From Aegilops tauschii subsp. strangulata (lineage: Eukaryota > Streptophyta > Magnoliopsida > Poales > Poaceae), in assembly GCF_002575655.3 (NCBI RefSeq), contig NC_053039.3, positions 221,483,622-221,547,621 of the forward strand: a DNA stretch of 64,000 nt, read 5' to 3'. Made by a program: the position numbers and the translations under genes. How positions within the stretch are numbered: the stretch's first letter is position 1; every line of letters begins with the position of its first letter. Positions 5,681 to 45,305 of the stretch are shown piece by piece. A model generated the notes under the pieces. It worked only from the letters and a program-made list of their open reading frames with translations, had not been told where the DNA came from and ran no database searches.

Positions 5681-5733
5681 GGAAACGACGGAGCGATGGA
5701 GTGACGAACTGATGGAAGGGAAACTACCGCGCA

Positions 5734-5751
5734 CCCCTACCCGGCGCGCCA
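5734..5751 (-). other. Element A primer binding site
   Basis: The minus strand reads TGGCGCGCCGGGTAGGGG two bases after the LTR end. Allowing one mismatch it complements the 3' end of a plant tRNA-Arg ending in ...CCCCTACCTGGCGCGCCA, as I recall that tRNA. The same site is in element B (25593-25610), and a variant is in D (18664-18681). Confidence 0.75.
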
Positions 5752-5753
5752 AA

Positions 5754-6653
5754 TGTCGGATGTGGGGTTCCGGCAAATCCTTAAGGTTCAAACACTGGGG
5801 TGCGCGCGGAGTCTCTCCCTCCTACCGATCTACGCTCTAGCTCGCTAAGATCTCGCGGATGAACTCGACGAACTTGCAACACAGAAAGACACGGGGTTTA
5901 TACTGGTTCGGGCCACCGTTGTGGTGTAATACCCTACTCCAGTGTGGTGGTGGTGGATTGCCTCTTGGGCTGATGATGAACAGTACAAGGGAAGAACAGC
6001 CTCCTGAGGTTGAGGTGTTCTTGTGCTTGTGAACTTGTGGCGTGAGGATTCGATCTGGACTAGTGCGGGATCAGTTCAGGCTCGCTTTTCGTTGCCTCTA
6101 CTGTGGTGGCTAGCTCTACTTATATAGGCCCTGGTCCTCTTCCCAAATATCGAGCGGGAAGGGAGCCAACAACGGCGGGCAAATTTGAAGGGGGACAGCT
6201 TACAAGCTATCCTGACAAAAGCGGTCTTCGCCTGCGAAAAGCTCTGGGGTGACGCCGTCTTGGGCTCCACGATGACCTCTGCCTTGCCGTCCTCCTGGTC
6301 TTGGTCTCGTTGCACCAATATGGCAACCTTTGCCTAATGCCTCGGTATTCTTCGCCTGCGCTGGCCTCCTTAGCACCAAAGGGGAAATAAGGATGCTGCG
6401 CGCATTGGCGCCCGCCTGGTACCGTTCGTCATGGCTCACGTCACGAAAGCCTCGTGAGGTTTGCTTCGCCTTGATATTTCCGCTCCTCGTGAGCGTGCCT
6501 GGCTAGGCCACTCCAGAGGAGGTCTTGCGTTGTCCACCTCGCGAGGGTCTTGGGTGCCTTGTTGACAAAGATGGGCCGTACAGCGTGCTGCTTAGCCACG
6601 CTGTGGGCCGCAGGCAGGCAAGTCTGGGGACCCCCGTTCCCAGAACGCCGACA
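5754..6653 (-). repeat. Element A 5' LTR (about 900 bp)
   Basis: Begins tgtcgg and ends ccgaca in window orientation. Both ends match the LTR of element B read in reverse. The match at 6610-6653 to the start of B's LTR is nearly perfect. A TATA-like box (minus CTATATAAG) lies at 6118-6126. The same tgttgc-and-gcccgaaccagtataaa-like tail as B is visible near 5880-5925. Drives transcription leftwards into gag. Confidence 0.85.
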
Positions 6654-24573: not shown

Positions 24574-24697
24574 TCAGTACTGGAGGGACTGTTCCTTCCT
24601 CTCAAGAAACTGGTAGCGTACCATAGCATTATAATCTAGAAAAGCAGGTGGCAACTCAATATCATTCCCTCTTATGGGTACACCAAGATAATTAGCA
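24574..24697 (-). pseudogene. Element C second ORF, C-terminal part (left of element B)
   Basis: The minus strand reads 'NYLGVPIRGNDIELPPAFLD' and 'RKEQSLQY' before a stop. Joined to 39165 (minus), after removal of element B and its duplicated five bases, the frame continues without a gap: 'GIYATSLA' then 'NYLGVPIR'. Same protein as the entry at 39165-39842. Confidence 0.75.
24693..24697. other. Left target-site duplication of B (tagca)
   Basis: tagca before the LTR. The right copy at 39165-39169 reads tagcc, one base different. Confidence 0.75.
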
Positions 24698-25590
24698 TGT
24701 CGGCGTTCTAGGATCGGGGGTCCCCAGACTTGCCTGCCTGCGGCCCGTGGTGTGGCTCCATTCACGGCCCAGTACGGCTCGTCTTCACCAACAAGTGCTC
24801 AAGACCCTCGCGAGGGGCCAAGCCTCGCGAGGCGGACGACACAAGACCTCCTCGGGAGTGGCCTCGTCAGGCTGGCTCGCGAGGGGCGGAAAGATCAAGG
24901 CGAGGCGAACCTCGCGAGGTTCCAATGACGCAAGCCATGAGGACCAAGGCCAGGCGGGCGCCAGCACGCACAGTGTCCTCGCTTCCTCTTTGGTGCTAAG
25001 GAGGCAAGCACAGGCGATGAGTACCGAGGCATCAGGCAAAGGTTTCCTTATCGGTGCAACGACACCAAGACCAGCAGGACGGCAAGACGGAGGTCACCGT
25101 GGAGCCCAAGACGGCGTCACCACCAGAGCCTTTGGCAGGCGAAGACCACCTTTAGTCAGGATAGCTTGTACTAGCTATCCCCTTTCAAATTGGCCGTTGT
25201 TGGATCCCTTCCCGCTCAATATTTGGGAAGAGGACCAGGGCCTCTATGAATAGGACTAGCCACCACAGTAGGAGACAACTCATCTTGAACTGATTCAGAT
25301 CATCCTCACACCCACCAAGCACAAGAACACCTCTCCTCAGGAGGCTGTTCTTCCCCTTGTACTGTTCATCCTTAGCCCGAGAGGCAATCCACCACACCAC
25401 ACTGGAGTAGGGTATTACACCACAACGGTGGCCCGAACCAGTATAAATCTTGTGTCTCTTGTGTTGCGAGTTTGTCGAGCTAGCCTTTGAGATCGTGGCG
25501 AGGTTGAGGGCGTGATTCGGTAGGGGGAGATCTTTGTGCGCACCCCAGTGTTCAAACCTCAAGGGTTTTGCCGGAACCCGAAATCCGACA
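24698..25590 (+). repeat. Element B 5' LTR
   Basis: Runs TGTCGGCGTT to AATCCGACA, 893 bp. The TATA box is damaged here (tatgaata, 25245-25252), while the 3' copy has tataaata. Contains several 'ctcgcgagg' palindromes (24823, 24870, 24920), some of them lost in the 3' copy by C to T or G to A change. Confidence 0.93.
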
Positions 25591-25610: not shown

Positions 25611-25667
25611 TGGGCCGGAGCTTTCCTTCCGTAGAACTACGCCTCTCCACCACCGCGCTTCGCCCCC

Positions 25668-26870
25668 ATGGCAGGCGCCGCGCTTCCCGCTCCGACGACT
25701 GATGCCAGCGGCGGGGCCAGGGGCCTCCGAGCCCTGGCCCCCGCCTTGCGGCAGGTATGGTGGCCGCCCAAGTTCAAGCCGGAGATGCCACCACGCTACG
25801 ACGGCGCGGCGGACCCGGTGGCCTTCCTGCTGGCGTACGAGGAGGCCGTCCTTCAGGCCGGGGGCGACGACAAGGTCATGGCCAACTGGCTTCCCATGGC
25901 CCTCACTGGCGTGCCGCGCGCCTGGCTACTCAACCTCCCCGAATCCACGATGGCATCTTGGGAGGAGCTGCGCTGCCTCTTCGTCGCGCGCTTCGCGGAA
26001 CCGGCGCCCCACGCGGTCCCAGCCCTCCTCGGCGGCTCGCAGGTGCCACCTTCGGACCGCCACGCCAAGCCGTTCTTTCGCCAGATCAGCACCGCTTTCG
26101 TGTGGCAGGGAGCTCCCCCAGGTTGGGTGGCGCCCAAGGCCGACCTGTCCTTCGATTCGAAAGATCACCCCGCCACCACCGTCGGCTCGGGCGTGCTCTC
26201 GATGCTTTGCACGCCCACCATCTGCCACGTGGCCGTCACCAAGACCCTCATTGATGGCGGCGCTGGCCTCAACATGCTCTCGGTGGAGGCCTTCAGCCTC
26301 CTTCACGTGCCAGTCGAGCGGCTCGGCCCCAACAATCCCTTCTCCGGCGTCGGAGGCGGCTCCTCCAGCCCCCTGGGGCTGATCCGTCTTCCCGTGACCT
26401 TCGGCACCCGCGACAACTACCGCACCGACCTGATCGATTTCGACGTCGCCCACATCGGCCTCCCGTACAACGCTATCCTTGGGTACCCGGCTCTAGCTCA
26501 GTTCATGGCGGTGACCCATCCGGCCTACAACCTCATGAAGATGCCTGGGAGCAAGGACGTCCTCACCATAGTGGGGGATACAAAGGAGGCTCTGGCAGCA
26601 CTCAAGCTTGCCCTCAAGACCGCCGTGGCAGCGCAACCAGCTGATATGGGAGCCTCCGGAGCTAAGGCGGCCGCACCAACCAAGAAGAAGCAGTTGTTCA
26701 CTCAAGACCAGGCAGAAACCAAGCAGGTGCCGGTCGAGGAAGACGGGTCCTCAGGGGCCACCTTCACCATAGGCGCCAACCTCGACCCCGACCAAGAGGA
26801 AGCACTGGTGAAGTTCTTGCGCGCAAACAAGGAAGTATTCGCCTGGGAGCCCGATCAGCTGGTAGGGGTC
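25668..26870 (+). pseudogene. Element B gag-protease, internally shortened
   Basis: The open frame starts at the ATG at 25668 ('MAGAALPAPTTDASGG') and runs 400 codons to the insertion of K. Residues about 25-120 are gag ('WPPKFKPEMPPRYDGAADPV', 'KVMANWLPMALTGVPRAWLL', 'SWEELRCLFVARFAEP'). The sequence then jumps straight to 'FFRQISTAFVWQG' and the protease, so the second half of the capsid and the zinc knuckle are deleted compared with element A. Protease: 'KTLIDGGAGLNMLS' and 'LPYNAILGYPALAQFMA'. The last residues ('LVKFLRANKEVFAWEPDQLVG') are the start of RT. The frame is open, but the protein lacks nucleic-acid-binding parts. Confidence 0.85.
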
Positions 26871-26871
26871 C
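26867..26871. other. Left target-site duplication of K (ggtcc)
   Basis: Perfect match to 32940-32944 on the other side of K. Confidence 0.95.
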
Positions 26872-27517
26872 TGTCGTGGAATTGTCACGGCAGATGTCCT
26901 AATGAAAGGACTTAGTCGTGAGGCCAGCGCATCTATGTAGTAGCTTGAGAGGGGTTGAGCGGAATCGAGAGACGCGGCACAAGACAGGGATTTAGACAGC
27001 TTCGGGCCCCAGGAAACATCATCCGGTAATAACCCTACATGCTGTTTGAGGCTAGATCTCATTACGCTCATGAGGGAGTCACCGATAACCGGCTCTTTGT
27101 GTCTAGCCATGGAGATTGTTTCTTCTTCCTTGCCCCTCTTTGGGGAGCCCTGCCCCTCCTTATATATGTTGAAGGGGCGGGTTACATGTGGAGTCCTATT
27201 AGGATTAGGACTAGTCTATCTCTAATACAAACCGGATACAAGTCCTGGTCTTAACTCCCTGTAAGGTAAATATTCGTCATGCCTTTCCTCTTAAACCGGC
27301 CCACCATAGTATGAACCGGCCTTCATGAACCGCCCGTTGGGCCACCGGGTCTTGTCGCTCCTTTGACCCGCCTGCCGGATTACCAATGAATCATAAACCG
27401 CCAGGTCCAAACGGGTCGCCAGTGGATCGTCAAGACTCAGTCGGGTCTCAAGTAAACTGCCAAGTCCGGCCGGGTTATACTTCCGGCCGGTTTACGCCGC
27501 GGGGTATATCCCCGACA
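26872..27517 (-). repeat. Element K 3' LTR (646 bp)
   Basis: Window orientation tgtcgtgg to cccgaca. Compared with the other copy it has about 24 extra bases near 27050 and about 16 extra near 27470. The minus-strand TATA box (atatata) lies at 27167-27161. Confidence 0.92.
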
Positions 27518-28323
27518 TTAGCCCCCAGTTTAATTTGGATTTATCCATGTTAACTGATCCTGTAAAACAAACACAAGAACAAATTTGACAGATTATGCTC
27601 CGGGTTTAAGAATTCTTGTAAACCGACATCTGATCATCCTTAAGTCCTTGTCATTTCCTCCTTCTAGAAAATCCGGGTCAACAAGCCAGCTTCATACTCA
27701 ATTTGCTGACATTGGTTTCTCACAGAGAAATATTGTGAAGAATAATCCACTTGAGTCGGCTTCCAAAGCGCAAGTTTAAGAAATATGGGTCTTGAAATAC
27801 TCATATGATATTCAACCGGTTTGAAGATGTAGAACTTGCCGGTTTATCATTGCCAAAACTGCCGGGTTATAAAAACTGATAATTCTGGGTTATGATTGTT
27901 GCCAACGCCGGTTCATGATTGTTGATGACGCCGGGTTATGATTGTTGCAGACACCGGGTCATAATGATTGGTGATGCCGGGTCAATCTGGTTTGCTCAGA
28001 ACTGAAAATCGGAAGATATTTCTCCCTTATATCCATATTACCTGTCGCCCCCAAGTCTTAAGAGGAGAACATAGTGATAACTTAAGACTTGGTCCAATAA
28101 GTGTTTTCAACCTTGAAGAAATCCGGTTTGTTCATCTCAATGATATAAACTGAATACTCCATATATGTAGCCCCCAAGTGCCGGGTTGTCATGCTTGCAG
28201 CAACCTGGGACTTGTAATTGCTTATAAAAACTTCAATCAGTGTAGCCCCCAAGGGCCGGCTTAGTAAGATAATACTGAACCGGGACTTGATATATACTTC
28301 AATGAAAATAACATCTTATAATG
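27518..28323 (-). other. Element K interior, left part
   Basis: Starts with the polypurine tract (minus ctgggggctaa). The rest is AT-rich and non-coding, with many 'ccgggtt'/'aaccgg' words and three copies of 'gcccccaag' (28047, 28169, 28244). Confidence 0.6.
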
Positions 28324-28326
28324 TAG

Positions 28327-28399
28327 CTTCCATCGTAGGGCTTGAACCCACGTCCACAAGGTTAAGAGCTTTGTGCTTTACCAACTGAGCAATGAACCT
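28327..28399 (-). tRNA. tRNA-Lys(CUU)-like sequence, degenerate, inside element K
   Basis: The minus strand aligns over 73 positions with plant tRNA-Lys(CTT). Nearly identical are the D arm and loop ('GCTCAGTTGGTAAAGC'), the anticodon loop (CTCTTAA, anticodon CTT intact), 'CCTTGTGG' and the T arm ('CGTGGGTTCAAGCCCTACG'). A-box and B-box promoter sequences are recognisable. Both halves of the acceptor stem have decayed and no longer pair, and D and anticodon stems each have a mismatch, so it is a pseudogene. The three bases after the discriminator position read CTA (28326-28324), one transition from the CCA that is added to mature tRNA and not encoded in plant nuclear genes. The primer site of the same element fits the same tRNA. 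Confidence 0.75.
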
Positions 28400-29473
28400 T
28401 TTAATATAATGGATTAAGGCTTGTATACCTTGAATGTTTGACAGGAGCAATTGGTAGCCCCCAAGGGCCGGCTCATTATGATGTGATGAGTCGGGTCTTC
28501 AATAAGGCCAAAAAAATGACTTTGCATTAGCCCCCAAGTGTCATGGTGCATGCTTGCAGCGACATGAGACTCTCATGTAATCTCAATTTGAATAATGCAG
28601 CCCCCAAGTGCCGGGTCGTAAGCCTGCAGCAACTCGGGACTATTCCTTCCATTGTAGAATAAATCATATCCTTTGATAAAATAATAGCCATTGTGCTAAA
28701 GCGACTTTGAAAACCTCAATAATACCGGTTACTAATAACCATAATAAAAATCCAGCCATGTTGGCTATTCAAGATAACATAATCCGGTATGAAAACCTTA
28801 TTCATTCAATATCATAATGAAAATTCAGCCAAGTTTGGCTATTTGAATAATATAACCCAATGATTTATAAGCGCATGATTCCAATGGCGCAATCCAAATA
28901 TATACTGGCGACTTATAGTCCAAAGCCAGGCCGGTTCAATAAACACCGGATAATTTATCATCATGCTTTATTCAACCTGTTTCTGCATACAACAAGTTTA
29001 AAGTGTCCCGGCGGTTTACCGCCGGACGGGTCATAATGCCCAACATATAATCCGGGTTTATAGCCAAGGCTGCTCTTAAGAATAATCAAATATGAAATAT
29101 ATCATACCTGTGACATTGAATCACATTGTTGGTTTTACCAACTTTTTGTAGTAAGGGTGATAATCCCAATCTTGAGTACTGATAACTCCTTCCATATCGT
29201 GCCGGTTTATGATAAAACCGTGCCGGGTTGTGATAAACACCGGATTAACCATATATAATACTGGTGACTTTGAGTCAAAACCAGACCGGGCTGATAGTCT
29301 CCGGATTATAATTTGATTGTATACTGTCAACTTGTAGTTGACGGCCTAACCGGGTTGATAAACACCGGTTTAAAAACGTCACAAATCTTATGAAAACAAA
29401 GAAAACTCAGCAAAAGGCAAATAAAAGGTCCGTTGTAGTCGAGGCTTTTCACGGGCTGACAGGCCCCAAATTT
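28400..29473 (-). other. Element K interior, spacer with dispersed short repeats
   Basis: Non-coding. 'agcccccaag' recurs at 28456, 28529 and 28599 with partly shared following sequence ('tgccgggt...tgcagcaac..gggact'). 'aaataatagccattgtgct' and 'tgaaaattcagccaagtttggct' form a second loose repeat (28680-28850). No ORF or known domain. Confidence 0.55.
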
Positions 29474-29911
29474 GATCAAGAGGTGTTGCTATGGTTCGGG
29501 TTCGACCAAGCCCCCAAGTGATGCTGTGGCATTACGCCGATCAAGAGGTGTTGCTATGGTTCGGGTTCGACCAAGCCCCCAAGTGATGTTGTGGCATTAC
29601 ACCGATCAAGAGGCGTTGCTATGGTTCGGGTTCAACCAAGCCCCCAAGTGATGCTGTGGCATTACGCCGATCAAGAGGCGTAGCTATGGTTCAGATACGA
29701 CCAAGCCCCCAAGTGATGCTGTGGCATTACGCCGATCAAGAGGCGTAGCTATGGTTCGGATACGACCAAGCCCCCAAGTGATGCTGTGGCATTGCGCCGA
29801 TCAAGAGGTGTAGCTATGGTTCGGATACGACCAAGCCCCCAAGTGATGCTGTGGCATTGCGCCGATCAAGAGGTGTAGCTATGGTTCGGATATGACCAAG
29901 CCCCCAAGTGA
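29474..29911 (-). repeat. 65-bp tandem repeat, 6.7 copies
   Basis: Units start at 29474, 29539, 29604, 29669, 29734, 29799 and 29864, always 65 bases apart. The last is cut after about 48 bases. Each begins gatcaagagg and contains 'gaccaagcccccaagtgatg'. Units differ by a few bases (tgttgct/cgtagct, attacgcc/attgcgcc), and neighbours share changes, as after stepwise duplication. Confidence 0.95.
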
Positions 29912-31222
29912 TCAATAATATGATAAGCCAATAAGGCATGATACCCATGTTTGAACTGCGCATCATGGCAGCAGGTCCTCTTTGGCACCCTTTAACTTTT
30001 TGCAAGCGATAAATCCTTCTTGAACCGGATATTGAGAGCTTCAAAGCTTTGTGGGAGAACAGATTTCCCTTAAACCGGATTGCAAACCGGAATCTTCATT
30101 TTCAGCCGGAAATTTTCTGATGGCCTTTCAACTCGAACTTGCAAGAAGTTAATTCCTTTTTGAACTGGACATTTTTAAACCGGATTTGAGCGCTTCAGTG
30201 AGACTGACTTCCCTTGAGCCGGATTTTAAACCGGAATCCTTTCTGATGACCCAGAACTTCTTCATTGAGCCGGGATTTTGTAACTGTCATATAACAGTAG
30301 CCTTCGGGACCGGGTTATCTTTCCCTCCATCGTCCTGGGATTCTTAATTTTGCTGAAACTGGACTGTTTTGCTGAGTCATGTCATCGTAGCCCCCGAGTC
30401 TCAAAGGTGACTCGAGGAGTTGGCTTGAGACTCTCCATATTTGACCGTGATATAAACCGGCATAACTTGTGTATCATTGGTGTTGATAGCATGATGTGAA
30501 TCCATGGAAGGTTGAGGTGACTGCGGTGGTTTATAAATTATCTGTATGAGCCGTGTCAACAACTTGGCCAATGGTTCCTTCCAACGGGCTATTTGAAGTT
30601 ATCCAAACTGTAGTGGCGACGACTTGCGTGCCTGCCCATTGAGCTATCCAGTGCAGACGACGGTTGATAGTATATGATAATTTGCCTCCAATTTGTTGAA
30701 AGAAAAAACTGGGCTACCCAAGCTGTGACTTGCTTTATATTCAATAAACAGCTCATGCAGATAGGTGCGGCCCGGTGTGTTGATGTAGACCAGGCCGCGA
30801 GAGACGGATGACAAAGACGACCGTGGCTTCAGAAGCGACACAGACAGATGAGTCGGCCGCGGTGTTGTAAACCAGCGTGGACGGGCGAATTAGCCACGTC
30901 ATATTGATGTAAACCTGTCTGCAGAATGGCTGTTTGCACATATATTCATCGAGCTTGATGGCATGATAAGATACTAGCGCATTTATAATGGTGGCGCGAG
31001 TTTATGACACAGCCATAGCTTTTGCAGTGAACAATTGTCCTGCATAAACAATATTGCAGACCAAGGCAAAGATAAACTATTCTTTGACAAAAACAATATG
31101 TGCTAAAAATATATTTTAGATGGATATCACCTGATGTGTTTAGGCCGAAAATAATCCGCCATGAAGTTGATGATCACTAGGTGAAACTGAAATCCCTCAC
31201 GGGTGAATCGGCCGTGGGAGCA
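29912..31222 (-). other. Element K interior, no genes seen
   Basis: Non-coding sequence rich in 'aaaccgga' words. One 37-base unit of the repeat described at 31223 ('gacagatgagtcggccgcgg...') is present near 30839-30875. No ORF of interest on either strand. Confidence 0.55.
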
Positions 31223-31400
31223 GACAGATAAACCGGCCACGGTGTTTGTGAGCCGGTGCGGACAAGCAAGTTGTCCTCTGCGTTGTAAGCCGGCGTGGAC
31301 GCGTGAACCGGGCGCGGGGGCGGACAGGCAAGTCATCCGTGGTGTTGTAAGGTGGTGCGGACGGGCGAGTCGGCCGACGAGTTGATGTAAACCGGACCGC
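31223..31400 (-). repeat. About 37-bp direct repeats, five diverged units
   Basis: Units start with gac at 31223, 31261, 31298 (shortened to 25 bases), 31323 and 31360, each with 'gccg..gttgtaagccgg.g.g'-like content. A further unit lies at 30839. Diverged, so older than the 65-bp array. Confidence 0.65.
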
Positions 31401-32313
31401 TGGGGCGATGGCTGTATATAACAACACTATAGGGCAGAGTGGTTGTTTTCAAAAAATTAATAAGTGCTGATAAAAATAAACTAGATGGATATCACCTGAT
31501 TTGTTTGGACGACGGATGATCACCATACGGCGTCCGTAGATAACCAAGATTTTTTGCGTTGACCCTTTCAAGGCGCGGCGGGGAGGCCCCATCACTGCTC
31601 AGGGCGTAGCTCAGCGGGTCAACAGCGCGGGTCAACAGAGGAGTCCGAGCCCGTGGAGAATCTGCTTCTGGGTCGTGGCCGTCCGGCCCTTTATTTTGCT
31701 TTTTTTCTTTTCTTATTTCCATGTTGGAATCAGGATCACGTCATGCCGACTGCCCTCTTCTTTCTGTACACAAGTACTAGTACCAGTACTAGTTGATCTG
31801 ATCTACTCCAATTATTCTCGGACAAGTCCAATCCCGTATCGGACTGCACTTTTTGTAAACGGCCGTACCATCAGTGTTTGACTTGACGCCAACTTATACA
31901 CTTTTTGCCATGGTCGGCACAAGCCCCCGGAGTTCCTTGCAACAAGTAGAAAATCGACCCAGTATTCGCTTCATCTAAGGATGCCTTGATGTACTGGTCG
32001 CTTCGCAGACTTGCTGATTGATTCTTACGTGGGCTGCTGCCGCTGCTATGAAATTTCCCGGGACTTGCGCGTATACACAGTTGAAGTAAGTCTATGGTGG
32101 AAACCCTTCTGCTGGTCTCGGCGACTCGCGACGACAACCAAATCGCAGCCCTAATTTTTCTTGAACCTTTTAACCTCACAAATCGTAATTCCGGACCGAT
32201 GAATTTGATGCGTATGCAAATCTTTTCAGACCGGCTCTTCTTCATCCAGATAATTGCGAGCTCCTCGGTCCCTGGGGAAGATCCCTCCAAGAACTCAACA
32301 CCACCATGCACAG
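31401..32313 (-). other. Element K leader region between primer site and repeats
   Basis: About 0.9 kb with no gag-like ORF. In a coding relative the gag would begin here on the minus strand. Includes short duplications ('ctagtaccagtactag' near 31779). Confidence 0.5.
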
Positions 32314-32331
32314 GCCCCACGGTGGGCGCCA
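32314..32331 (-). other. Element K primer binding site matching tRNA-Lys(CUU)
   Basis: Minus strand TGGCGCCCACCGTGGGGC, two bases from the 5' LTR end. It is the exact complement of GCCCCACGGTGGGCG plus CCA, the 3' end of plant tRNA-Lys(CTT) as I know it. Confidence 0.85.
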
Positions 32332-32333
32332 AC

Positions 32334-32939
32334 TGTCGTGGAATTGTCACGGCAGATGTCCTAATGAAAGGACTTAGTCGTGAGGCCAACGCATCTATGT
32401 AGTAGCTTGAGAGGGGTTGAGCGGAATCGAGAGACGCGACACAAGACAGGGATTTAGACAGCTTCGGGCCCCGGGAAACATAATCCGGTAATAACCCTAC
32501 ATGCTGTTTGAGGGAGTCGCTGGTAAACCGGCTCTTTGTGTCTAGCCCTGGAGATTGTTTCTTCTTCCTTGCCCCTCTTTGGGGAGCCGTGCCCCTCCTT
32601 ATATATGTTGAAGGGGCGGGTTACATGTGGAGTCCTATTAGGATTAGGACTAGTCTATCTCTAATACAAACCGGATACAAGTCCTGGTCTTAACTCCCTG
32701 TAAGGTAAATATTCGTCATGCCTTTCCTCTTAAACCGGTCCACCATAGTATGAACCGGCCTTCATGAACCGCCCGTTGGGCCACCGGGTCTTGTCGCTCC
32801 TCCGACCCGCCTGCCGAATTACCAATGAATCGTAAACCGCCAGGTCCAAACGGGTCGCCAGTGGATCGTGAAGACTCAGCCGGGTCTCAAGTAAACCGCC
32901 AAGTCCGGCCGGTTTACGCCACGGGGTATATCCCTGACA
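32334..32939 (-). repeat. Element K 5' LTR (606 bp)
   Basis: Same ends as the left copy. TATA box (minus atatata) at 32606-32600. Promoter for minus-strand transcription. Confidence 0.92.
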
Positions 32940-32944
32940 GGTCC
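32940..32944. other. Right target-site duplication of K (ggtcc)
   Basis: Identical to 26867-26871. Removing K and one copy restores continuity of element B. Confidence 0.95.
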
Positions 32945-33846
32945 CAAGAGGAGTGATTGAGCATCACTTGAAGGTGTACCCCAATGTACGCCCTGTGAAA
33001 CAGAGGGCGCGGTGGCAGTCCACGGAGAAGCAGACCTTCATCAACCAAGAAACCCGCAAGCTGGAGGCGGCCGACGTCATTCGCGAGGTCCGGCACCCTG
33101 AATGATTGGCAAACCCCGTCGTTGCGCCCAACAAAGGCGGGAAGGAGCGCATGTGTGTCGACTTCACCAACCTCAACAAGGCCTGCCCCCAAGATCCATT
33201 CCCGCTTCCGCGCATCGACCAGATTGTCGAATCCACCGCCGAGTGTGACCTATTGTGCTTCCTAGATGCATTCTCAGGCTACCACCAGGTCAAGATGGCA
33301 GTTGAAGACGTCGAGAAAACAGCCTTCCTGACCACGTGCGGGGTATACTGCTACACTTGCATGCCGTTCGGGCTGCGCAACGTGGGCGCGACCTTTCAAC
33401 GACTGATGCACATCGCCCTGGGCCGCCAGCTCGGGAGGAATGCTGAAGCCTACATCGACGACATTGTGGTGAAGTCTCGAGAGGCGAGAACCTTGATTCA
33501 AGACCTGGAGGAGACCTTCGAAAGCCTGGGCCAGGTAAGCTTGCGGCCTAACCCGGAGAAATGCATGTTTGGCATCCCTTCCGGCAAGCTGCTGGGTTTC
33601 CTCGTGTCCCACAGAGGGATTGAGGCGAACCCGGAGAAGGTCAAGGCAATCGAAGACATGAGTCCACCACAAACCCTCAAGGAAATGCAGAAGCTCGCCG
33701 ATCGCGTGACCGTGTTGGGGCGTTTTATCTCTAAGTTGGGAGAGCGTGCCCCGCCGTTCTTCAAGCTGATGAAGAAAAAGGGGGCCATTCGAGTGGAATT
33801 CGGAGGCCGACCAAGCATTTCAATACCTCAAGAGATACCTGACTAG
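32945..33846 (+). pseudogene. Element B reverse transcriptase
   Basis: Resumes after K with 'VIEHHLKVYPNVRPVKQ' and continues through 'ANPVVAPNKGGKERMCVDFT', 'LLCFLDAFSGYHQVKMA' (first catalytic Asp), 'YCYTCMPFGLRNVGATFQR' and 'EAYIDDIVVKSRE' (YxDD box, intact), then the thumb ('PSGKLLGFLVSHRGIEAN', 'VTVLGRFISKLGERAPP'). A TGA at about 33103-33105 ('PEW' to 'PE*') and a frameshift near 33785 break it. Confidence 0.9.
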
Positions 33847-35200
33847 CCCTCCGGTGATGGTGGCGCCCCGACCTCTCGAGCCTCTGGTGTTGTACCTTGC
33901 TGCCACCCCTTACTCCGCCAGTGCAGCTCTGGTGGCGGTCCGGGAGGAGCGCCAAGCCAAGGATGCACCGCGCCAAGCCGCTCCCTTAGCCGGAGCGGCG
34001 CAAGACCCAGAGGGCTCTGCTGGAGCTGCGGTGACGCCAGCAAAGGACCAAGCTCAACAAGACAGCGCGCTTGGGCCTGCGGAAGCCCCAACAGGCGACC
34101 AGGCTTTGGGGGCTTTGTCGCCTCAGGAGGCGCCCCAGCCCCCGGAGGCCGCGAGCCTCGTCAACGCACCTGCCCTCGTCGAGCACCCTGTGTACTTTGT
34201 CAGCACGGTGCCGCGGGACGCGAGGGCACGCTACCCCATGCCTCAGAAGCTCCTGCTCGCGCTCCTGGTGGCCTCGTGCAAGCTGCGACACTACTTTCAA
34301 GGGCACCCCATCAAGGTTGTCTCGGCCTACTTGTTGGAAAGGGTGCTCAGGAGCCCCAACTCCGCTGGGAGAGTCGTCGAGTGGAACCTCGAGCTACAGG
34401 CATTCCAGTTGGAGTTCAGCACAACCAGGGTCATCAAGGGAGCCGCACTTGCTGATTTCATGGCAGAATGGACAGACGCCCCGCAACTCGAAGAAGGCGA
34501 GGATAGATCCCTCTCGGAGTGAAGCACCAGATGGCTGGGTTATGTATTTCGATGGCGCCTTTGCGCGCTAGGGCGCGGGGGCTGGAGCAGTGCTCATCTC
34601 ACCCACTCAAGACAAGCTTTACTACGCAGTGTAGCTCTGCTTCCAGCAAGGCGAGAAGGTCTCCAACAACATAGCAGAGTACGAAGGCCTCATAGCTGGC
34701 CTCAAGGCTGCGGTGGCCCTGGGGTGAAGCGCCTCACCATCAAGGGCGATTCGCAGCTCCTCGTCAACTTCTCCAACAAGGTGTACGAGCCAAAGGACGA
34801 GCACATGGAGGCATACCTCGCGGAGGTGAGCAAGATGGAGAAGCAGTTCTTGGGCCTAGAATTGCAGCTTGTGCCCCGTGGCACCAACATGGAAGCCGAC
34901 GACATCGCCAAGAGAGCATCCAAGCATCTACCCCAAGAGCCTGGCGTCTTCGAGGAGCGGCTCTTCAAGCCATCGGCAACACCACCGCTTTCAAAAACAG
35001 TACTGCCTCGGGACGAACTCCCCCAACCACCTGCCTCGGGAGCCCCGGCCTGTGGCACGACCTCAGGAGTGCGCTTGCTCTTGGCGCTCGAGCCTCAGGA
35101 GGGGTGCTGGACCAAGGAATTCAAGGAGTACCTGACGCAAGGGACGCTGCTGGAGAAGAATGAGGATGCGGAGCGTGTGGCCCGACAAGCCACGACATAG
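33847..35200 (+). pseudogene. Element B RNase H and linker
   Basis: The RNase-H-like connection ('LVLYLAATPYSASAALVAVR', 33880-33960), an Ala/Gln-rich insert, then 'YFVSTVPRDARARYPMPQKL'. The catalytic RNase H follows in a second frame: 'VMYFDGAFAR', 'AEYEGLIAGLKAA', 'IKGDSQLLVNFSNK' and 'NMEADDIAKRAS' carry the Asp, Glu, Asp, Asp set. Stops at 34569-34571 and 34632-34634 are TAG where the relative in element F has CAG. A one-base shift lies near 34728. The linker to integrase contains 'LFKPSATPPLSK'. Confidence 0.87.
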
Positions 35201-36340
35201 TGCATCCAGGACGGTGAGTTGTACAGGAAACGGCCGAATGACGTTTCCCAGCGTTGCATCTCTAGGGAGCAGGGGAAAGAGCTGCTGGCCGACATACACG
35301 GCGGGGACTGCGGGCACCACTCGTCGTTGCGGACCCTCGTCGGCAAGGCGTTTCGCAGCGGATTCTACTGGCCTACGGCACTCAACGACGCGGCTGAGCG
35401 GGTGAAGTCCTGCGAGGCCTGCCAGTTCCACGCCAAGCAGATCCATCAGCCGGCTTAGGGCCTCCAGACCATCCCACTTTCGTGGCCATTCACGATCTGG
35501 GGGCTAGACATCTTGGGCCCGTTCCCTCGAGCGCCTGGGAGCTACCGCTACCTCTACGTCGCCATCGACAAGTTCACCAAGTGGGCGGAGGTAGAAGCCG
35601 TCCGCACCATCCCGTCCGGCTCCGCGGTCAAGTTCGTCAAGGGTCTCGTGAGCCGGTTTGGGGTCCCCAACCGCATCATCACCAACAACAGCTCACAGTT
35701 CACTAGTAACCTCTTCAAGACATATTGTGCTAACCTTGGAATCTGCTACGCTTCGGTGGAAAATCCCCGGAGCAATGGCCAGGCCGAACGCGCCAATGCA
35801 GAGGTCCTGAGAGGCCTCAAGACCAGGACCTTCAAGAAGAAGCCCGAGGCCAGCGGAAGGGGCTGGCACGACGAGCTCCAGTCCGTGTTGTGGTCCATCC
35901 GCACCACCGCCATCTAGCCAATGGGCGAGACCCCATTCTTCCTCGTCTACAGGGCTGAAGCGGTTCTCCCTCACGAGGTCAAGCATCGCTCCGCGCGGGT
36001 CCTGGCGTTGGATGAGACACAGTAGGACGCCATGCGGGGGATGGACCTCGTGCTGGGGGAGGAGCGCCGCCGTGAAGCCACGCTGCGGGCGGCAAGATAT
36101 CAGCAGGCGCTGCGACGGTACCACTGTCGCAGCATCCGCTCCAGGACGCTCGAGGTGGGTGACTTCGTCCTACGGCGGGTGCTCTCCAGGGAAGGGTTGC
36201 ATAAGCTCTCTCCCATGTGGGAGGGCCCGTTTAGGTTCGCTCACGTCTCCAGGCCTAGCGCCGCGCGCCTAGAGACGCAGGACGGGGTACCCATCCAGAA
36301 CGCCCGGAACATCCAGCACCTTCGGAAGTTCTACCCATGA
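35201..36340 (+). pseudogene. Element B integrase
   Basis: Zinc-binding domain 35219-35455 ('LLADIHGGDCGHHSSLRTLV', 'CEACQFHAKQIHQPA'), then TAG at 35456-35458 for Gln. The core starts 'IWGLDILGPFPRAPG' (first Asp) and ends its triad with 'GQAERANAEVLRGLK' (Glu). The middle Asp is replaced: 'RIITNNSSQF' with AAC at 35684-35686 in place of GAC. Further stops: one at about 35915-35917, and TAG at 36024-36026. The C-terminal module 'LEVGDFVLRRVLSREG' to 'NARNIQHLRKFYP' ends at the stop at 36338-36340. Confidence 0.9.
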
Positions 36341-37225
36341 AGAAAGACCCAGCGCCTGTGAAGAAGGCCCCGTGCCTGTGAAGGTCTCCGCTCGCGACAC
36401 TCTCACGTAATAATGAGTGGGGCTGTACACGCCCCGGAGTCTCAGGAGTGCCGCCCTCGGGCCTCTGGGGCTCCCTCCCACGTCCTAGTGGCGGCACTTA
36501 GCTCCACGCTGGTGAGAAGACACGAAGACTAGACTAGGTGCCAAACGCGGCTTTTCATTTGCTTTCCGTAATTGGCTTGCCCTTCTTTAATCGAATTTGC
36601 TTTCTTGTGTCGCTTGCTGGTCTTGTTTTGGCGACTTCTGCCTCTGTTTCTGCCTTTGGTTCTTTGTTTGACCTGTACCCTCTCTCGCGTCCCTCGCGAG
36701 GGGGCTGGACAGGTGCCCTCGTGAGCATCTTGTCTGTTTTTCGCGAGGCACCCTCGTTCAAGCCTCAAGCTGGCGCGCCTCACTCAATCCATGCCCCTCG
36801 GGTACCGCGATACGAGGCGCTGTGTCGCGGCCAGAGGCGCCTGCGACCAAGGCTCGGATATCCTAACAAATTTTCACAGTTCCTCCTCACCAGGTACCAA
36901 GAAGCGCGCACCTCGTCAGGCGGAAACTACTTCAAATGCGTCAAGCTAAGTTTTTCCTATGCGCCTATATAAAACATTGATATCGCGACGCAGCACGGGG
37001 ATGACAAACACAGCATAACAACCTGGAAATCATAGTTTGTTGCACGCCCCCACAGGGCCCCATACATGTCTCTCTCAATGCAGGAAGGAAAAGAAGAACG
37101 AAACAAAAGCGGTGCGTGCCCCCGCGGCAGCTCACGAGGACGGGCCGATGGCGCTCTCCCGAGCTCAGTCGGACCCTTCCTCACGCTTCACCGGAGCGCG
37201 GCGAAGAGACGACCCGCTGCCACCT
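36341..37225 (+). other. Element B spacer after pol
   Basis: Non-coding on the + strand. Starts with two short repeats ('agcgcctgtgaagaaggccc', 'cgtgcctgtgaaggtc'), includes 'cctcgcgag' palindromes near 36690, and merges into the 3' flank of the antisense gene. Nothing else recognised. Confidence 0.6.
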
Positions 37226-37936
37226 TCAAAGCGAGCGCGGCGGCTGGTCGTAGCCACCGCTGCTGGAGCTGTCGCCGGAGGGAGAACCGCCGTAGTTGGG
37301 CGCGAGATCGTCCTCGCCCTCATCCCGACCGTCACCAAGGCCAAGAACCTTGTCATTTTCGTTGTCCTCGGGGCAGCACCCGGCGCGGCGGCCGTCTTCT
37401 TCGAACACCCTCACGTATAGGGTCGCGTTGCCATCATACTTGAAGTGGAGAGTGCACCGCCTGCCCAAGCCGCGCGCGCGGGCAAACGTCTGCCAGCCGC
37501 GAGCTAGAGCCACGTTGCCAGCAACGGAGGTCTCGACCGCGACCCATGAAGCTTTGCTGCAACAGCCGTCCGCCTGCAACCAAAGCCCGCCTGGACCCGT
37601 GGCCAGTAGCTCACCAGCGAAGAAGCGCGGGAGCTGAAGCCAGGAGCCGGCAGGGTTCTCCGACCACACCACGAACTCCGGCAGCACCTCCGCTGAGTGG
37701 AAGCACGGCCGGGGAGGCCGCGTGACCAAGGCGCGCCTCCCTTCGTCGACGGGGCTGCTTCGACATGGGCGGCTCACACCACGCGAAGGAGCACCGCCGC
37801 GGCCGCGGGAAGCCGCGGCGGGGGTCGCCGAGTGCTTGCGAGGACGACCACGTCCACGCTTGGGCGGCGGGGAGCCGGGCCCCTCCTGGCGAGCCTTCCC
37901 CTTCTCCGCGGCCGAAAACCTCTTCAAAGGTGCCAT
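37226..37936 (-). CDS. Antisense accessory gene of element B: AT-hook and B3 DNA-binding domain protein
   Basis: An intact minus-strand ORF of 236 codons, ATG at 37936 ('MAPLKRFSAAEKGKARQEG'), TGA at 37228-37226. Residues about 20-32 are an AT-hook ('PKRGRGRPRKHS'). Residues about 80-175 match the plant B3 fold: 'WLQLPRFFAGEL', 'ASWVAVETSVAGNVALARGW', 'TFARARGL', then 'LHFKYDGNATLYVRVFEEDG'. The last 45 residues are acidic and Ser/Gly-rich ('DEGEDDLAPNYGG'). B3 domains bind DNA in plant transcription factors (ARF, VAL, REM groups). A TATA box lies 85-92 bases upstream. The gene points against pol and ends in the spacer, so it has its own transcript. No stop or frameshift, unlike the rest of B. 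Confidence 0.8.
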   Translation of the reverse strand: MAPLKRFSAAEKGKARQEGPGSPPPKRGRGRPRKHSATPAAASRGRGGAPSRGVSRPCRSSPVDEGRRALVTRPPRPCFHSAEVLPEFVVWSENPAGSWLQLPRFFAGELLATGPGGLWLQADGCCSKASWVAVETSVAGNVALARGWQTFARARGLGRRCTLHFKYDGNATLYVRVFEEDGRRAGCCPEDNENDKVLGLGDGRDEGEDDLAPNYGGSPSGDSSSSGGYDQPPRSL

Positions 37937-38020
37937 GGGAGTCACTACTAGCAATGGAGCAAGAAAGGAGAAGCGAACGAAATGGGAAGAGATGGGCGAT
38001 GGGGGCTCTGCCCCCTCCCC

Positions 38021-38028
38021 CATTTATA
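38021..38028 (-). promoter_or_regulatory. TATA box of the antisense B3 gene
   Basis: Minus-strand TATAAATG about 85 bases before the ATG at 37936, inside element B and outside its LTR. Confidence 0.55.
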
Positions 38029-38256
38029 GCAGGACAAGGCCAACCGATGATCCCCACGATCACAGGTAATGATGATATTTCTCTGCATGCACCAGGGACT
38101 CGTCAAGTCGGGCAGTTGCCGAGGCAATGTGGGGAAGTGGAGACGCCCACGTCCAATCAATCGCCACGCGTCGACCTAGGCCGCAGGCTGTTGGGGCCCG
38201 CGGCGCTCCGCACTTGCCCTTTGGCTTCGCCTCGAAGCCAAGTCCGAGCGCGCCTT

Positions 38257-38270
38257 GGGCCCGGGGGCTA
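38257..38270 (+). other. Element B polypurine tract
   Basis: gggcccgggggcta directly before the 3' LTR, the priming site for plus-strand synthesis. Confidence 0.8.
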
Positions 38271-38271
38271 C

Positions 38272-39164
38272 TGTCGGCGTTCTGGGATCGGGGGTCCCCA
38301 GACTTGCCTGCCTGCGGCCTGCAGCGTGGCTCCACTCGCGGCCCAGTACGACCCGTCTTCACCAACAAGTGCTCAAGACCCTCGCGAGGGGCCAAGCCTC
38401 ATGAGGTGGACGACACAAGACCTCCTCGGGAGTGGCCTCGTCAGGCTGGCTTACGAGGGGCGGAGAGATCAAGGCGAGGCGAACCTCGCGAGGTTCCAAT
38501 GACGCAAGCCATGACGACCAAGGCCAGGCGGGCGCCAGCGCGCACAGTGTCCTCGCTTCTTCTTTGGTGCTAAGGAGGCAAGCGTAGGCGATGAGTACCG
38601 AGGCATCAGGCAAAGGTTTCCTTATCGGTGCAACGACACCAAGACCAGCAGGACGGCAAGACGGAGGTCACCGTGGAGCCCAAGACGGCATCCCCACCAG
38701 AGCCTTTGGCAGGCGAAGACCACCTTTAGTCAGGATGGCTTGTACTAGCTGTCCCCTTTCAAATTGGCCTTTGTTGGATCCCTTCCCGCTCAATATTTGG
38801 GAAGAGGACCAGGGCCTCTATAAATAGGACTAGCCACCACAGTAGGAGGCAACTCATCTTGAACTGATTCAGATCATCCTCACACCCACCAAGCACAAGA
38901 ACACCTCTCCTCAGGGGGCTGTTCTTCCCCTTGTACTGTTCATCCTCAGCCCGAGAGGCAATCCACCACACCACACTGGAGTAGGGTATTACACCACAAC
39001 GGTGGCCCGAACCAGTATAAATCTTGTGTCTCTTGCGTTGCGAGTTCGTCGAGCTAGCCTTTGAGATCGTGGCGAGGTTGAGGGCGTGATTCGGTAGGGG
39101 GAGATCTTCGTGCGCACCCCAGTGTTCGAACCTCAAGGGTTTTGCCGGAACCCGAAATCCGACA
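38272..39164 (+). repeat. Element B 3' LTR
   Basis: 893 bp, same ends as the 5' copy. Intact TATA box tataaata at 38819-38826. Confidence 0.93.
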
Positions 39165-39842
39165 TAGCCAAACTAGTTGCATAAATCCCACCAAATAAAT
39201 CTCCATCTTTAGCATTAAGATGTAACCTCCTCGCAATAATGGCCCCCAAGTTATAACGCTTATCACCTAACAACGCACACTTGAGGACACTAAGATCTGG
39301 AACGCAAAGGTGGCTATGCTCATGCTTACCATTAATGCATCTACCTATAAAGAGAGCAAAATAATGTATGGAAGGAAAGTGAATGCTCCCTATGGTAGAT
39401 TGTGTGATATTTTTAGTTTCTCCCATAGTGATGCTAGCAAGGAAATCATTGTATTCAGCTTTGTGAGGCTCACTAAGAAGGCCCCATTGTGGGATTTTGC
39501 AAGCAGTATTGAAATCCTCAAGGTCCATGGTATATGATTCATCATAAAGATTAAACAAAACATATGGGTATTGCGCTTAGATGAAAATTCAAACCTCCGC
39601 ACAAAGGAATCGGTGAGGTGATAGTATCGTCGGCACTTCTCTAACACGAAGTCCTCAAGGTCGGCATTTCGTACGTATGCATCAAACTCATACTTGAAAC
39701 CTGCATGAACCATGAATTCATCCGACGGCCATTCACAAGGCCTCACTTGAGCTTCCCTTGGTGGTTCAAGGTCCGGCTCACGTGTCGCGAGCCTCGGTGC
39801 TTGCTTCCTCGAAGAACAACCTTGGTACATTTTCCTAGACAT
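39165..39842 (-). pseudogene. Element C second ORF, N-terminal part
   Basis: ATG at 39842 ('MSRKMYQGCSSRKQAPRL'). The frame runs to about 39560 ('DSFVRRFEFSSKRNTHMF'), shifts once, and continues 'FNLYDESYTMDLEDFNTACK', 'IHYFALFIGRCINGK', 'RYNLGAIIARRLH' to the insertion of B at 39164. It resumes at 24697. The protein is common in Triticeae Gypsy elements and resembles the gag/ORF1-type proteins of the Athila group. I cannot assign a catalytic role and see no membrane segment or zinc finger. Confidence 0.65.
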
Positions 39843-43170: not shown

Positions 43171-43797
43171 TGTCGGATTTCGGGTTCTGCAAACCCTTGA
43201 GAGGTTCAAACTCTGGGGTGCGTGCGAAGAACTCGACCTCTGCAGTCTGTCTACTCGCCAATCTCTCGGCCTAGCTCGATGAACTGGAAGGAAACGGGAC
43301 ACAACAGTTTACCCAGGTTCGGGCCACCTTGTTGTGTAAAACCCTACTCCTGCTTTGTGGTGGATTGGCCTCGAGGGGCTGAGGATGAACTAGTACAGTA
43401 GGAGAACAACCTCAGGAGGAGGCGTGTTCTTGTGCTGGTGGGAGAGGATGATCTCCAGGACCTGGAACCCCCTCTATGGTGCTCACTAGCCCTATTTATA
43501 GTGGCCTTGGTCCTCTCCCCAAATGTAAGGTGGGAAGGGATCCCACAATGGCCAAATTCGAAGGAAGACAACTAGTACATGCTATCCTGACAAAAGTAGT
43601 CTTCGCTTGCAAAAGCCTCTGGTCGTGACATCGTGGTGGGCTCGGTGATGACCTCCGTCCTGCCGTCCTGGCGGTCTTGGTCTCATTGCACCGTAATGGA
43701 AACCTTTGGCTGATTCCTCAGGACTCCGCGCCTGTGCTTGCTCTTTAGCACCGAAGAGGAAACTAGTACACTGCGCCCACTGGCGCCCGCACTCCCC
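43171..43797 (-). repeat. Element F 3' LTR, 5' part deleted
   Basis: Window start tgtcggatttcggg matches the reversed end of B's LTR. Homology continues to about 43790 ('actggcgcccgc'), then breaks off into integrase sequence. TATA box on the minus strand (tataaatag) at 43500-43492. About 270 bases of the LTR start are missing. Confidence 0.8.
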
Positions 43798-44868
43798 ACC
43801 ATGTTTGTCGGCCAACATCTCACATCCTTGCTCCCTGGAATTGCATCACAGAGAAACATCGTTTGGCCATTTCCGATAGAGCTCACCACCATGAATGAAG
43901 TAGGCAGTGGCCTGTCGAGCCACGCGCTCCGCGTCTTCCTCATTCTCCGGCAGGGTCCCCTGAAGCAGGTACGCCTTGAACTCTTCGGTCCAGCACCCCT
44001 CCTGAGGTTCAAGTGCGAGGAGTAGACGTGCTCCCAAGGTTGGGCCACAAGCGGGGGCTCCCGAGAGGGGTGCTGGGGGGAGCTCCTCCTGAGGCGATGT
44101 TGGTGCCGCAACTGGAGGGGCTGCTGACGGCCTGAAGAGCCGCTCTTCAAAGACGCCAGGCTCCTGAGGCAGGCGCCGGGACGCCCTCTTGGCGATATCG
44201 TCTACTTCCTTGTTCGTGCCGCGGGGCACGTGCTGCAGTTCTAGGCCCAAGAATTGTTTTTCAATTTTGCGTACCTCCACAAGGTATGCCTCCATGTGTT
44301 CGTCCTTCGGCTCGTATACTTTGTTGGAGAAGTTGAACAGGAGCTGGGAGTCGCCCTTGATGGTGAGGCGCTTCACTACCAAGGCTGCCGTAGCCTTGAG
44401 ACCGGCGATCAAGGCTTCGTACTCCGCGATGTTGTTGGAGACCTTCTCACCCTCCTGGAAGCAGAGCTGCATGGCGTAGTAGAGCTTGTCCTGGGTGGGC
44501 GAGATTAGCACGGCTCCAGCCCCCGCGCCCTGGCACGCGAATGCGCCGTCGAAGTACATGACCCAGCCGTCCGGTGCCTCGCTTCCCGGCGAGAGGGGTC
44601 GATCCTCGCCCACTTCTGGGCTGGGAACTTTGGTCCATTCTGCCACGAAGTCGGCGAGCGCCGCACCCTTGATGACTCTGGTGGTGCTGAACTCCAACTG
44701 GAATGCCAGCAGTTTGATGTTCCACTCTGCGACCCTTCCCGCGACCTTGGGGCTCCGGAGCACCCTTTCCAGTGGGTAAGCTGAGACGGGCTTGATGGGG
44801 TGGCCTTGGAAGTAATGGTGCAGCTTGCGGGAGGCGATGAGGAGCGCGAGCCAGAGCTTTTGCGGCAT
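43798..44868 (-). pseudogene. Element F RNase H and start of integrase
   Basis: The 340-codon open frame 44868-43846 begins 'MPQKLWLALLIASRKLHHYF' and contains a complete RNase H: 'VMYFDGAFACQGAGAG', 'AEYEALIAGLKATAA', 'IKGDSQLLFNFSNK' and 'NKEVDDIAKRAS'. All four catalytic acidic residues are kept. The tail leads to the integrase zinc domain, which stops at 'LADKHGGECG' where the deletion to the LTR begins. Confidence 0.87.
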
Positions 44869-45305
44869 GGGTAACGTGCCTGCGCATCGCGCAGCACCGT
44901 GCTGATGAAGTACACCGGGTGCTCGACGAGGGCGGAAGTGTTGGTGGGGTCTTGTACCTCCTGAGACCAGAGGACCTCAGGAGCTCGGCCGTTCTGAGGA
45001 GCTTGGTCTTCTGTTGGGGCAGCCGAGGCCTCAGGAGCGCCGTCCTGAAGCTGTGGCGTCTTGACCGGGTGAGCGGAGGCGCTTGGTGGGCCCTTGGTCT
45101 GGCGCTCCTCCCGGACAGCCACCAGCGCTGCGCTGGCAGAGTGAGGCGTGGCGGCCAGGTAGAGCACCAGGGGCTCAAGGGGACGTGGCGCTACATTCAC
45201 CGGTGGGCTAGTGAGGTATCTCTTGAGGTCTTGGAATGCCGCGTCAGCCTCCGGAGTCCACTCGAACGTCCCCTTCTTTTTCGTTAGCTTGAAGAACGGG
45301 AGGGT
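44869..45305 (-). pseudogene. Element F RT/RNase H connection
   Basis: Minus strand 'VNVAPRPLEPLVLYLAATPH' and 'SASAALVAVREERQTKG' followed by an Ala/Gln/Pro-rich insert and 'VYFISTVLRDAQARYP'; frameshift near 44870. Upstream it runs to 'FFKLTKKKGTFEWTPEAD' and is cut at 45305 by E; 54530-54484 supplies the preceding residues. Confidence 0.82.

Follow-up and report, generated by a model that had tools for sequence, protein, structure and literature searches.

Does a retrotransposon of Aegilops tauschii subsp. strangulata carry, on the strand opposite to its own pol gene, a functional gene for a DNA-binding protein, and what might such a protein do for the element? The question is raised by a 64,000-nucleotide stretch of contig NC_053039.3 (the window, by which we mean this whole stretch), in which a long terminal repeat (LTR) retrotransposon, element B, contains a minus-strand open reading frame (ORF) of 236 codons between its integrase and its 3' LTR. 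An original prediction, made from the sequence alone, described this ORF as an undamaged gene for a protein with an AT-hook, a B3-like domain and an acidic tail, preceded by a TATA box. We assign a probability of roughly 60% to the reading that a high-copy Tat-type Gypsy family carries this ORF, in antisense orientation, as a conserved accessory gene, and that its B3/AT-hook protein regulates the LTRs of the element in trans. The features concerned are as follows.

37226..37936, minus strand: antisense accessory gene, 236 codons in the window copy (199 homologues at E <= 1e-3; ratio of nonsynonymous to synonymous substitution rates, dN/dS)
37835..37861, minus strand: predicted AT-hook block, residues 26-34 (Pfam AT_hook E 0.032, 14.5 bits, cut-off 17.4)
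37391..37687, minus strand: predicted B3 domain, residues 84-182 (Pfam PF02362 E 2.4e-4, 21.4 bits, cut-off 30.1)
37229..37390, minus strand: acidic, serine-rich tail, residues 183-236, shortened in the window copy (12 D+E versus 5 K+R)
38022..38028, minus strand: TATA box of the likely antisense promoter (TATAAA exact in 58/66 copies)
38153..38157, minus strand: ATTGG (exact in 59/65 copies; comparable windows of equal CpG count have a median of 0.70)
38272..39164, plus strand: 3' LTR of element B (pairs with the 5' LTR; homologous LTR adjoins the gene in 18/20 copies)

Position, length and predicted fold of the antisense ORF

As originally proposed, the ORF at 37936-37226 is stop-free and lies on the opposite strand between the last integrase piece, which ends at 36337, and the 3' LTR, which begins at 38272. 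The TATA box was also recognized correctly, although TATAAA starts at 38028 and is thus 92 nt ahead of the ATG, not 85. A longer ATG frame would start at 38023, within the TATA box, so we take the ATG at 37936 as the start; it is present in 66 of the 67 aligned copies described below. The description of the gene as undamaged does not stand: the window copy ends at residue 236, and a longer C-terminal tail with a VK..E motif at its end is found in 23 of the 33 rows of an alignment of family members (alignment A1). Database homologues from the same start reach about 247-261 residues, and a start-motif scan finds an uninterrupted ORF in 23 of the 66 other aligned copies (15 of 251-268 residues, 8 of 147-230). 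Judged by these comparisons, the window copy is not intact, its tail being shortened.

The length of the ORF is by itself weak evidence, as 236 codons or more are reached by an ATG ORF in 3.9% of 1000 simulations of this 1.9-kb region under a first-order Markov model, and a chance ORF in GC-rich DNA would account for length alone. That explanation is refuted by the homologues, by the predicted fold, by dN/dS and by the distribution of stops, since over 67 copies the ORF frame contains 42 stop cells, the fewest of the six frames, versus 109-392 in the others. A protein search with the ORF retrieved the homologues counted above, and one with the 33-sequence alignment, which took in 7985 candidates, retrieved at least 347; homologue details refer to the best 120 of each. 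No relatives were confirmed in viral_contigs (searched for the ORF and for reverse transcriptase, RT) or in genome_contigs.

Within the A. tauschii genome the ORF yielded 23,072 first-look candidates, and the best 150 of these, when scored, all match at 79-100% identity, window included. In a context sample of 20 of these loci, spaced down the list and with about 4.6 kb taken on each side, the ORF is antisense to the adjoining element sequence in 20/20, with integrase C-terminal sequence upstream on the sense strand in 18/20 (not L012 and L014), LTR sequence on its other side in 18/20 (not L009 and L022), and both in 16/20. The antisense placement at one and the same site, which the original prediction proposed to check across the family, is seen among these copies, which were located through the ORF itself and are silent on the share of the family that lacks it.

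The predicted domains also hold up, with qualifications. The AT-hook-like block has an RGRP core in a basic context and can be taken as a putative AT-hook; the nine residues of the window recur in 16 of the 26 rows that cover the block, and the exact RGRP core in 19 of the 26 (window ORF counted). PF02362 is matched at E <= 1 by 32 of the 33 members, window included. The B3 region is the confident part of the structure model, in which eight strands and two helices form the predicted open beta-barrel with two short helices of a B3 fold, and both Foldseek and VIA-align align it to B3 structures. The nearest solved folds are those of VRN1 (4i1k, 24% identity) and At1g16640 (1yel, 21% identity), both of which we take to be REM-type B3 proteins; in contrast to these, the protein described here combines one B3 domain with an AT-hook and an acidic tail, and is encoded inside a retrotransposon. 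A search of solved structures with the single ORF gave no match at E < 0.2, with 1yel at E 0.57. The acidic character of the tail is as originally described.

Purifying selection and the decay of single copies

The codon alignment comprises 67 distinct copies, namely the window ORF and 66 of the 150 scored loci (most of them high-ranking, with 19 taken at spaced ranks, so that better-kept copies are favoured). Pooled over three divergence bins, dN/dS is 0.35, 0.29 and 0.28 for the whole ORF; by region it is 0.31, 0.26 and 0.23 for B3, 0.40, 0.25 and 0.22 for the N-terminal part with the AT-hook, 0.47, 0.43 and 0.43 for the linker, and 0.31, 0.29 and 0.31 for the tail. Two shifted and two reverse frames give 0.85-1.83. 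Integrase parts yield 0.21 (17 sequences), 0.31 (18) and 0.17 (16) versus 0.30 for the ORF (21), with the window included in each, so that the constraint on the ORF is about like that on integrase. With a B3 match present and a dN/dS of about 0.3 indicating purifying selection, neither of the outcomes named in advance as fatal to the original prediction (no significant B3 match, or an ORF absent or frameshifted in nearly all relatives with a ratio near 1) was found, although 33 of the 67 copies contain a stop.

A folded frequency test of singleton versus common variants, taken in the context of the window codons, points the same way. Nonsynonymous to synonymous counts (N:S) in B3 are 120:41 for singletons and 24:42 for common variants (p 1.3e-7), a drop in N:S from 2.93 to 0.57; the same shift is seen in the N-terminal part (p 0.001) and tail (p 2e-5), and weakly in the linker (p 0.048). 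At the protein level common variants are fewer in B3, both with 21 sequences (odds ratio (OR) 0.49, p 0.003) and with 98 (OR 0.59, p 0.043), and a BLOSUM contrast between common and singleton variants is present in the 98-sequence set only. Half of the copies (34/67) are stop-free in the window frame. TAG accounts for 32 of the 42 stop cells, and 23 of these are CAG to TAG or TGG to TAG relative to the window codon, changes of the type that cytosine deamination in methylated DNA would produce. Our reading is that the protein was conserved in the lineages that kept spreading, and that each inserted copy then decays.

These data bear on two further explanations. Were the ORF a passenger without function, derived from a one-time capture of a host B3 fragment, single copies would be free to decay, as they do (stops in 33/67); its position at the same site in 20/20 context copies, a constraint about like that on integrase and the depletion of nonsynonymous changes among common variants all argue against this, and we consider it extremely unlikely. 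Alternatively, the antisense transcript and not the protein might matter, through double-stranded RNA, as a small-RNA trigger or as a decoy, a possibility raised in PMC7264820 and consistent with the kept TATA box. Such a role is very unlikely given a dN/dS of about 0.3 versus 0.85-1.83 in four of the five other frames, and given the fall of N:S in B3 from singleton to common variants.

A candidate promoter and the proposed regulatory role

The extended motif TATAAAT is exact in 55/65 copies, against a median of 0.40 for windows of equal CpG count. The ATTGG at 38157-38153 is presumably a reverse CCAAT box. Transcription of the gene probably starts from a TATA-containing promoter of its own, located between it and the 3' LTR. 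A candidate RY motif, TGCATGCA at 38091-38084, is kept in 47/66 copies and was set aside because at rank 51 of 327 it is too undistinctive.

Since selection on the antisense B3 gene is about as strict as on integrase, the element probably supplies a gene regulator of its own. The antisense promoter would give rise to a protein some 250-268 residues long, in which a REM-like B3 domain is preceded by an N-terminal AT-hook block and followed by an acidic, serine-rich tail. This protein would most likely enter the nucleus, bind element DNA and act in trans on the element's LTRs, regulating their transcription or silencing. AT-hooks bind the minor groove of AT-rich DNA, and B3 domains bind the major groove. 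The LTRs would be the presumed target, and the effect could be activation, repression or protection from silencing. An antisense promoter of its own together with a nuclear DNA-binding protein would best fit regulation of the element.

The same predicted DNA-binding architecture could instead serve targeting or tethering, with the protein joining the integration complex or marking chromatin and so steering insertion, and not regulating transcription. Chromodomains steer the insertion of chromoviruses, and no chromodomain match was found in the scanned pol pieces at E <= 0.1; the gene is, however, antisense with a kept TATA box, and hence its product would not be made within the gag-pol polyprotein, and we regard a targeting function as unlikely. 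It is also quite unlikely that host genes are the protein's main targets, with the protein for instance mimicking a REM factor in reproductive tissue and so favouring germline transposition, a role in keeping with the resemblance of its fold to VRN1 and At1g16640 and with the host-type B3 names borne in nr by the Aegilops tauschii members P0119, P0238, P0239 and P0251.

Several observations weigh against regulation of the LTRs by a conserved protein and temper our confidence in it. The B3 and AT_hook scores of the window ORF are both under the curated Pfam cut-offs, AT_hook is reached at E <= 1 by only 5 of the 33 members, and the B3 part of the window copy has no net positive charge (9 K+R, 9 D+E). 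The 66 other aligned copies were drawn from the best 150 of 23,072, which favours well-kept copies, and 33 of the 67 already contain at least one stop. The reverse frame that shares third positions with the ORF, its plus-strand mirror, has a dN/dS of 0.28-0.39, slightly above that of the ORF; we reject coding on the plus strand in this frame, since at each of four columns a majority of the copies has a stop. Common-variant N:S does not differ significantly between B3 and the linker plus tail (p 0.24), common B3 changes in the 21-sequence protein test are no more conservative than singletons (p 0.18), and a conservative/radical test on distinct single-step changes is null in every region (p 0.09-0.35), the signal in this last test probably being swamped by the private decay of single copies. 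Finally, several other short upstream blocks are kept as well as the TATA box, so that the promoter is unproven by conservation alone.

The general class is known. Antisense additional ORFs between pol and the 3' LTR (aORF-3R) have been described in Grande (gene23), RIRE2 and Retand (ORF4) (PMC7264820), and the ORF reported here has the same place and orientation and, among the copies located through it, the same conservation between integrase and 3' LTR; those of PMC7264820 are present in most copies of a family. Grande gene23, which has its own antisense promoter and a nuclear product (PMC7264820), is the nearest precedent for the promoter and location proposed here. Unlike the aORF-3R, for which the text of PMC7264820 available to us mentions no B3 domain, the present ORF encodes a predicted B3 domain with an AT-hook and acidic tail. 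Antisense ORFs of the Retand lineage with a Transposase_28 domain (PF04195) are likewise found between pol and 3' LTR and are predicted to bind DNA, with a regulatory role suggested (PMC11963269); in contrast to them, the ORF of element B has no Transposase_28 match, and the region from pol to 3' LTR (36338-38271) is 1.93 kb as against their 2.9-6.6 kb. The roles of antisense accessory genes in plant Gypsy elements are undetermined according to PMC7264820 and PMC11963269. A more distant analogy, and only that since the element class is another, is offered by the VANC anti-silencing proteins of VANDAL DNA transposons, which are also element-encoded accessory proteins and act sequence-specifically; they show that element-specific anti-silencing exists in plants (PMC5735166, PMC11728184).

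The original prediction had left open whether the gene was described before. In one sentence, PMC9289625 (2022) notes that LTR-retrotransposon consensuses contain a B3 domain in Aegilops tauschii alone, and it is plausible that these consensuses represent the same or a sister family, the B3 domain and Aegilops tauschii homologues being common to both. The section of that paper on B3 gives no orientation, position, selection or promoter. Within the part of the open-licence literature covered, this was the only link found between B3 and retrotransposon coding, and we claim no absence elsewhere; a "B3 domain" match in PMC7602945 concerns a pine host gene near repeats, not retrotransposon coding. 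Thus the class (an antisense accessory ORF of a Tat-type element) and a B3 content in Aegilops tauschii consensuses are known, and the placement, predicted fold, selection, candidate promoter and genome-wide copies do not figure in the part of the literature covered. We know of no domain common to VANC and the antisense B3 protein. An antisense accessory gene with a predicted specific DNA-binding domain, constraint near that of integrase and a likely promoter should make its targets directly measurable.

A second B3 family and the host element

We note that a second, divergent B3 protein family is represented at L022:7644-8084 (plus strand), 34% identical to residues 106-188 of the first. It has an acidic, serine-rich tail and 398 homologues at E <= 1e-3, some of them named 'B3 domain-containing protein Os03g0212300-like [Aegilops tauschii]', and its member P0238 passes the Pfam B3 cut-off with 38.5 bits. 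The two families are joined by profile at E 2.8e-18. The predicted fold of the second was unusable (mean predicted local distance difference test score, pLDDT, 36.8), and a profile search with it found no solved structure at E <= 1.

Some repeated B3 genes thus carry host-type B3 names in nr, and gene annotation is possibly affected. The Triticum urartu genome study (PMC6784869) describes an amplification of REM B3 genes, seen in T. urartu, Ae. tauschii and bread wheat, and speculates on a link to vernalization; this amplification may be partly inflated by element-borne B3 genes, which would be a simpler explanation. A broader conjecture, that Triticeae retrotransposons took up B3 in at least two divergent repeated families (one with an AT-hook, one of about 149 residues) that trans-regulate their own LTRs by activation or anti-silencing, and that these explain most of the REM "amplification", is possible and in our view doubtful.

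The remaining features of element B are as follows.

24698..25590, plus strand: 5' LTR (96.3% identity to the 3' LTR, in a match one base longer; TGTCGG...CCGACA)
25635..26871, plus strand: gag/protease coding part, interrupted by the nested insertion (stop-to-stop ORF 25635-26912)
26872..32939, no strand assigned: nested LTR element in the pol of element B, outside the accessory gene (LTRs 90.6% identical)
33106..33843, plus strand: reverse transcriptase (RVT_1 E 2.3e-23)
33773..34519, plus strand: first RNase H (RT_RNaseH_2 E 1.6e-14, RT_RNaseH E 1.4e-10)
34523..35197, plus strand: second RNase H (aRH-type), between RNase H and integrase (RVT_3 E 4.2e-8)
35201..36337, plus strand: integrase, interrupted by stops and frame changes, with pieces for the zinc-binding, core and C-terminal parts (Integrase_H2C2 E 4.8e-7, rve E 9.5e-10)

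The sense pol is broken, as originally noted, being split into several pieces by stops and frame changes. The Retrotrans_gag match in the gag part is weak (Pfam E 0.028, below cut-off), and the last integrase piece, 36026-36337, matches no Pfam integrase profile, and only its position marks it as C-terminal. Element B is flanked by a target-site duplication matching at 4 of 5 positions (TAGCA at 24693-24697, TAGCC at 39165-39169). LTR divergence (Jukes-Cantor 0.038), at a substitution rate of 1.3e-8 per site per year, places its insertion at about 1.5 million years ago.

The Pfam order on the plus strand is reverse transcriptase, RNase H, RVT_3 and integrase; RVT_3 lies between RT_RNaseH and Integrase_H2C2, which makes element B a Tat-type Gypsy element. 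This placement of a second RNase H is the one described for the Ogre and Retand subclades of Tat (PMC6317226). Two features of the Retand lineage are lacking in element B: at E <= 0.1, neither the antisense ORF nor any of 13 further stop-to-stop pieces matches PF04195, and the region between pol and 3' LTR is shorter. A family name (for example Fatima, PMC3129301) is not assignable without reference sequences.

Two relatives of element B are present in the window, at 5714-6653 and at 43171-45299 (minus strand), with LTR stretches 80% and 76-77% alike. The latter has pol homologous up to about 35319, followed directly by the inner part of an LTR, so that the accessory-gene region is missing. 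The nested element at 26872-32939 is flanked by GGTCC on both sides (26867-26871 and 32940-32944), and contains, at 29474-29912, a 65-bp unit repeated in tandem 6.8 times.
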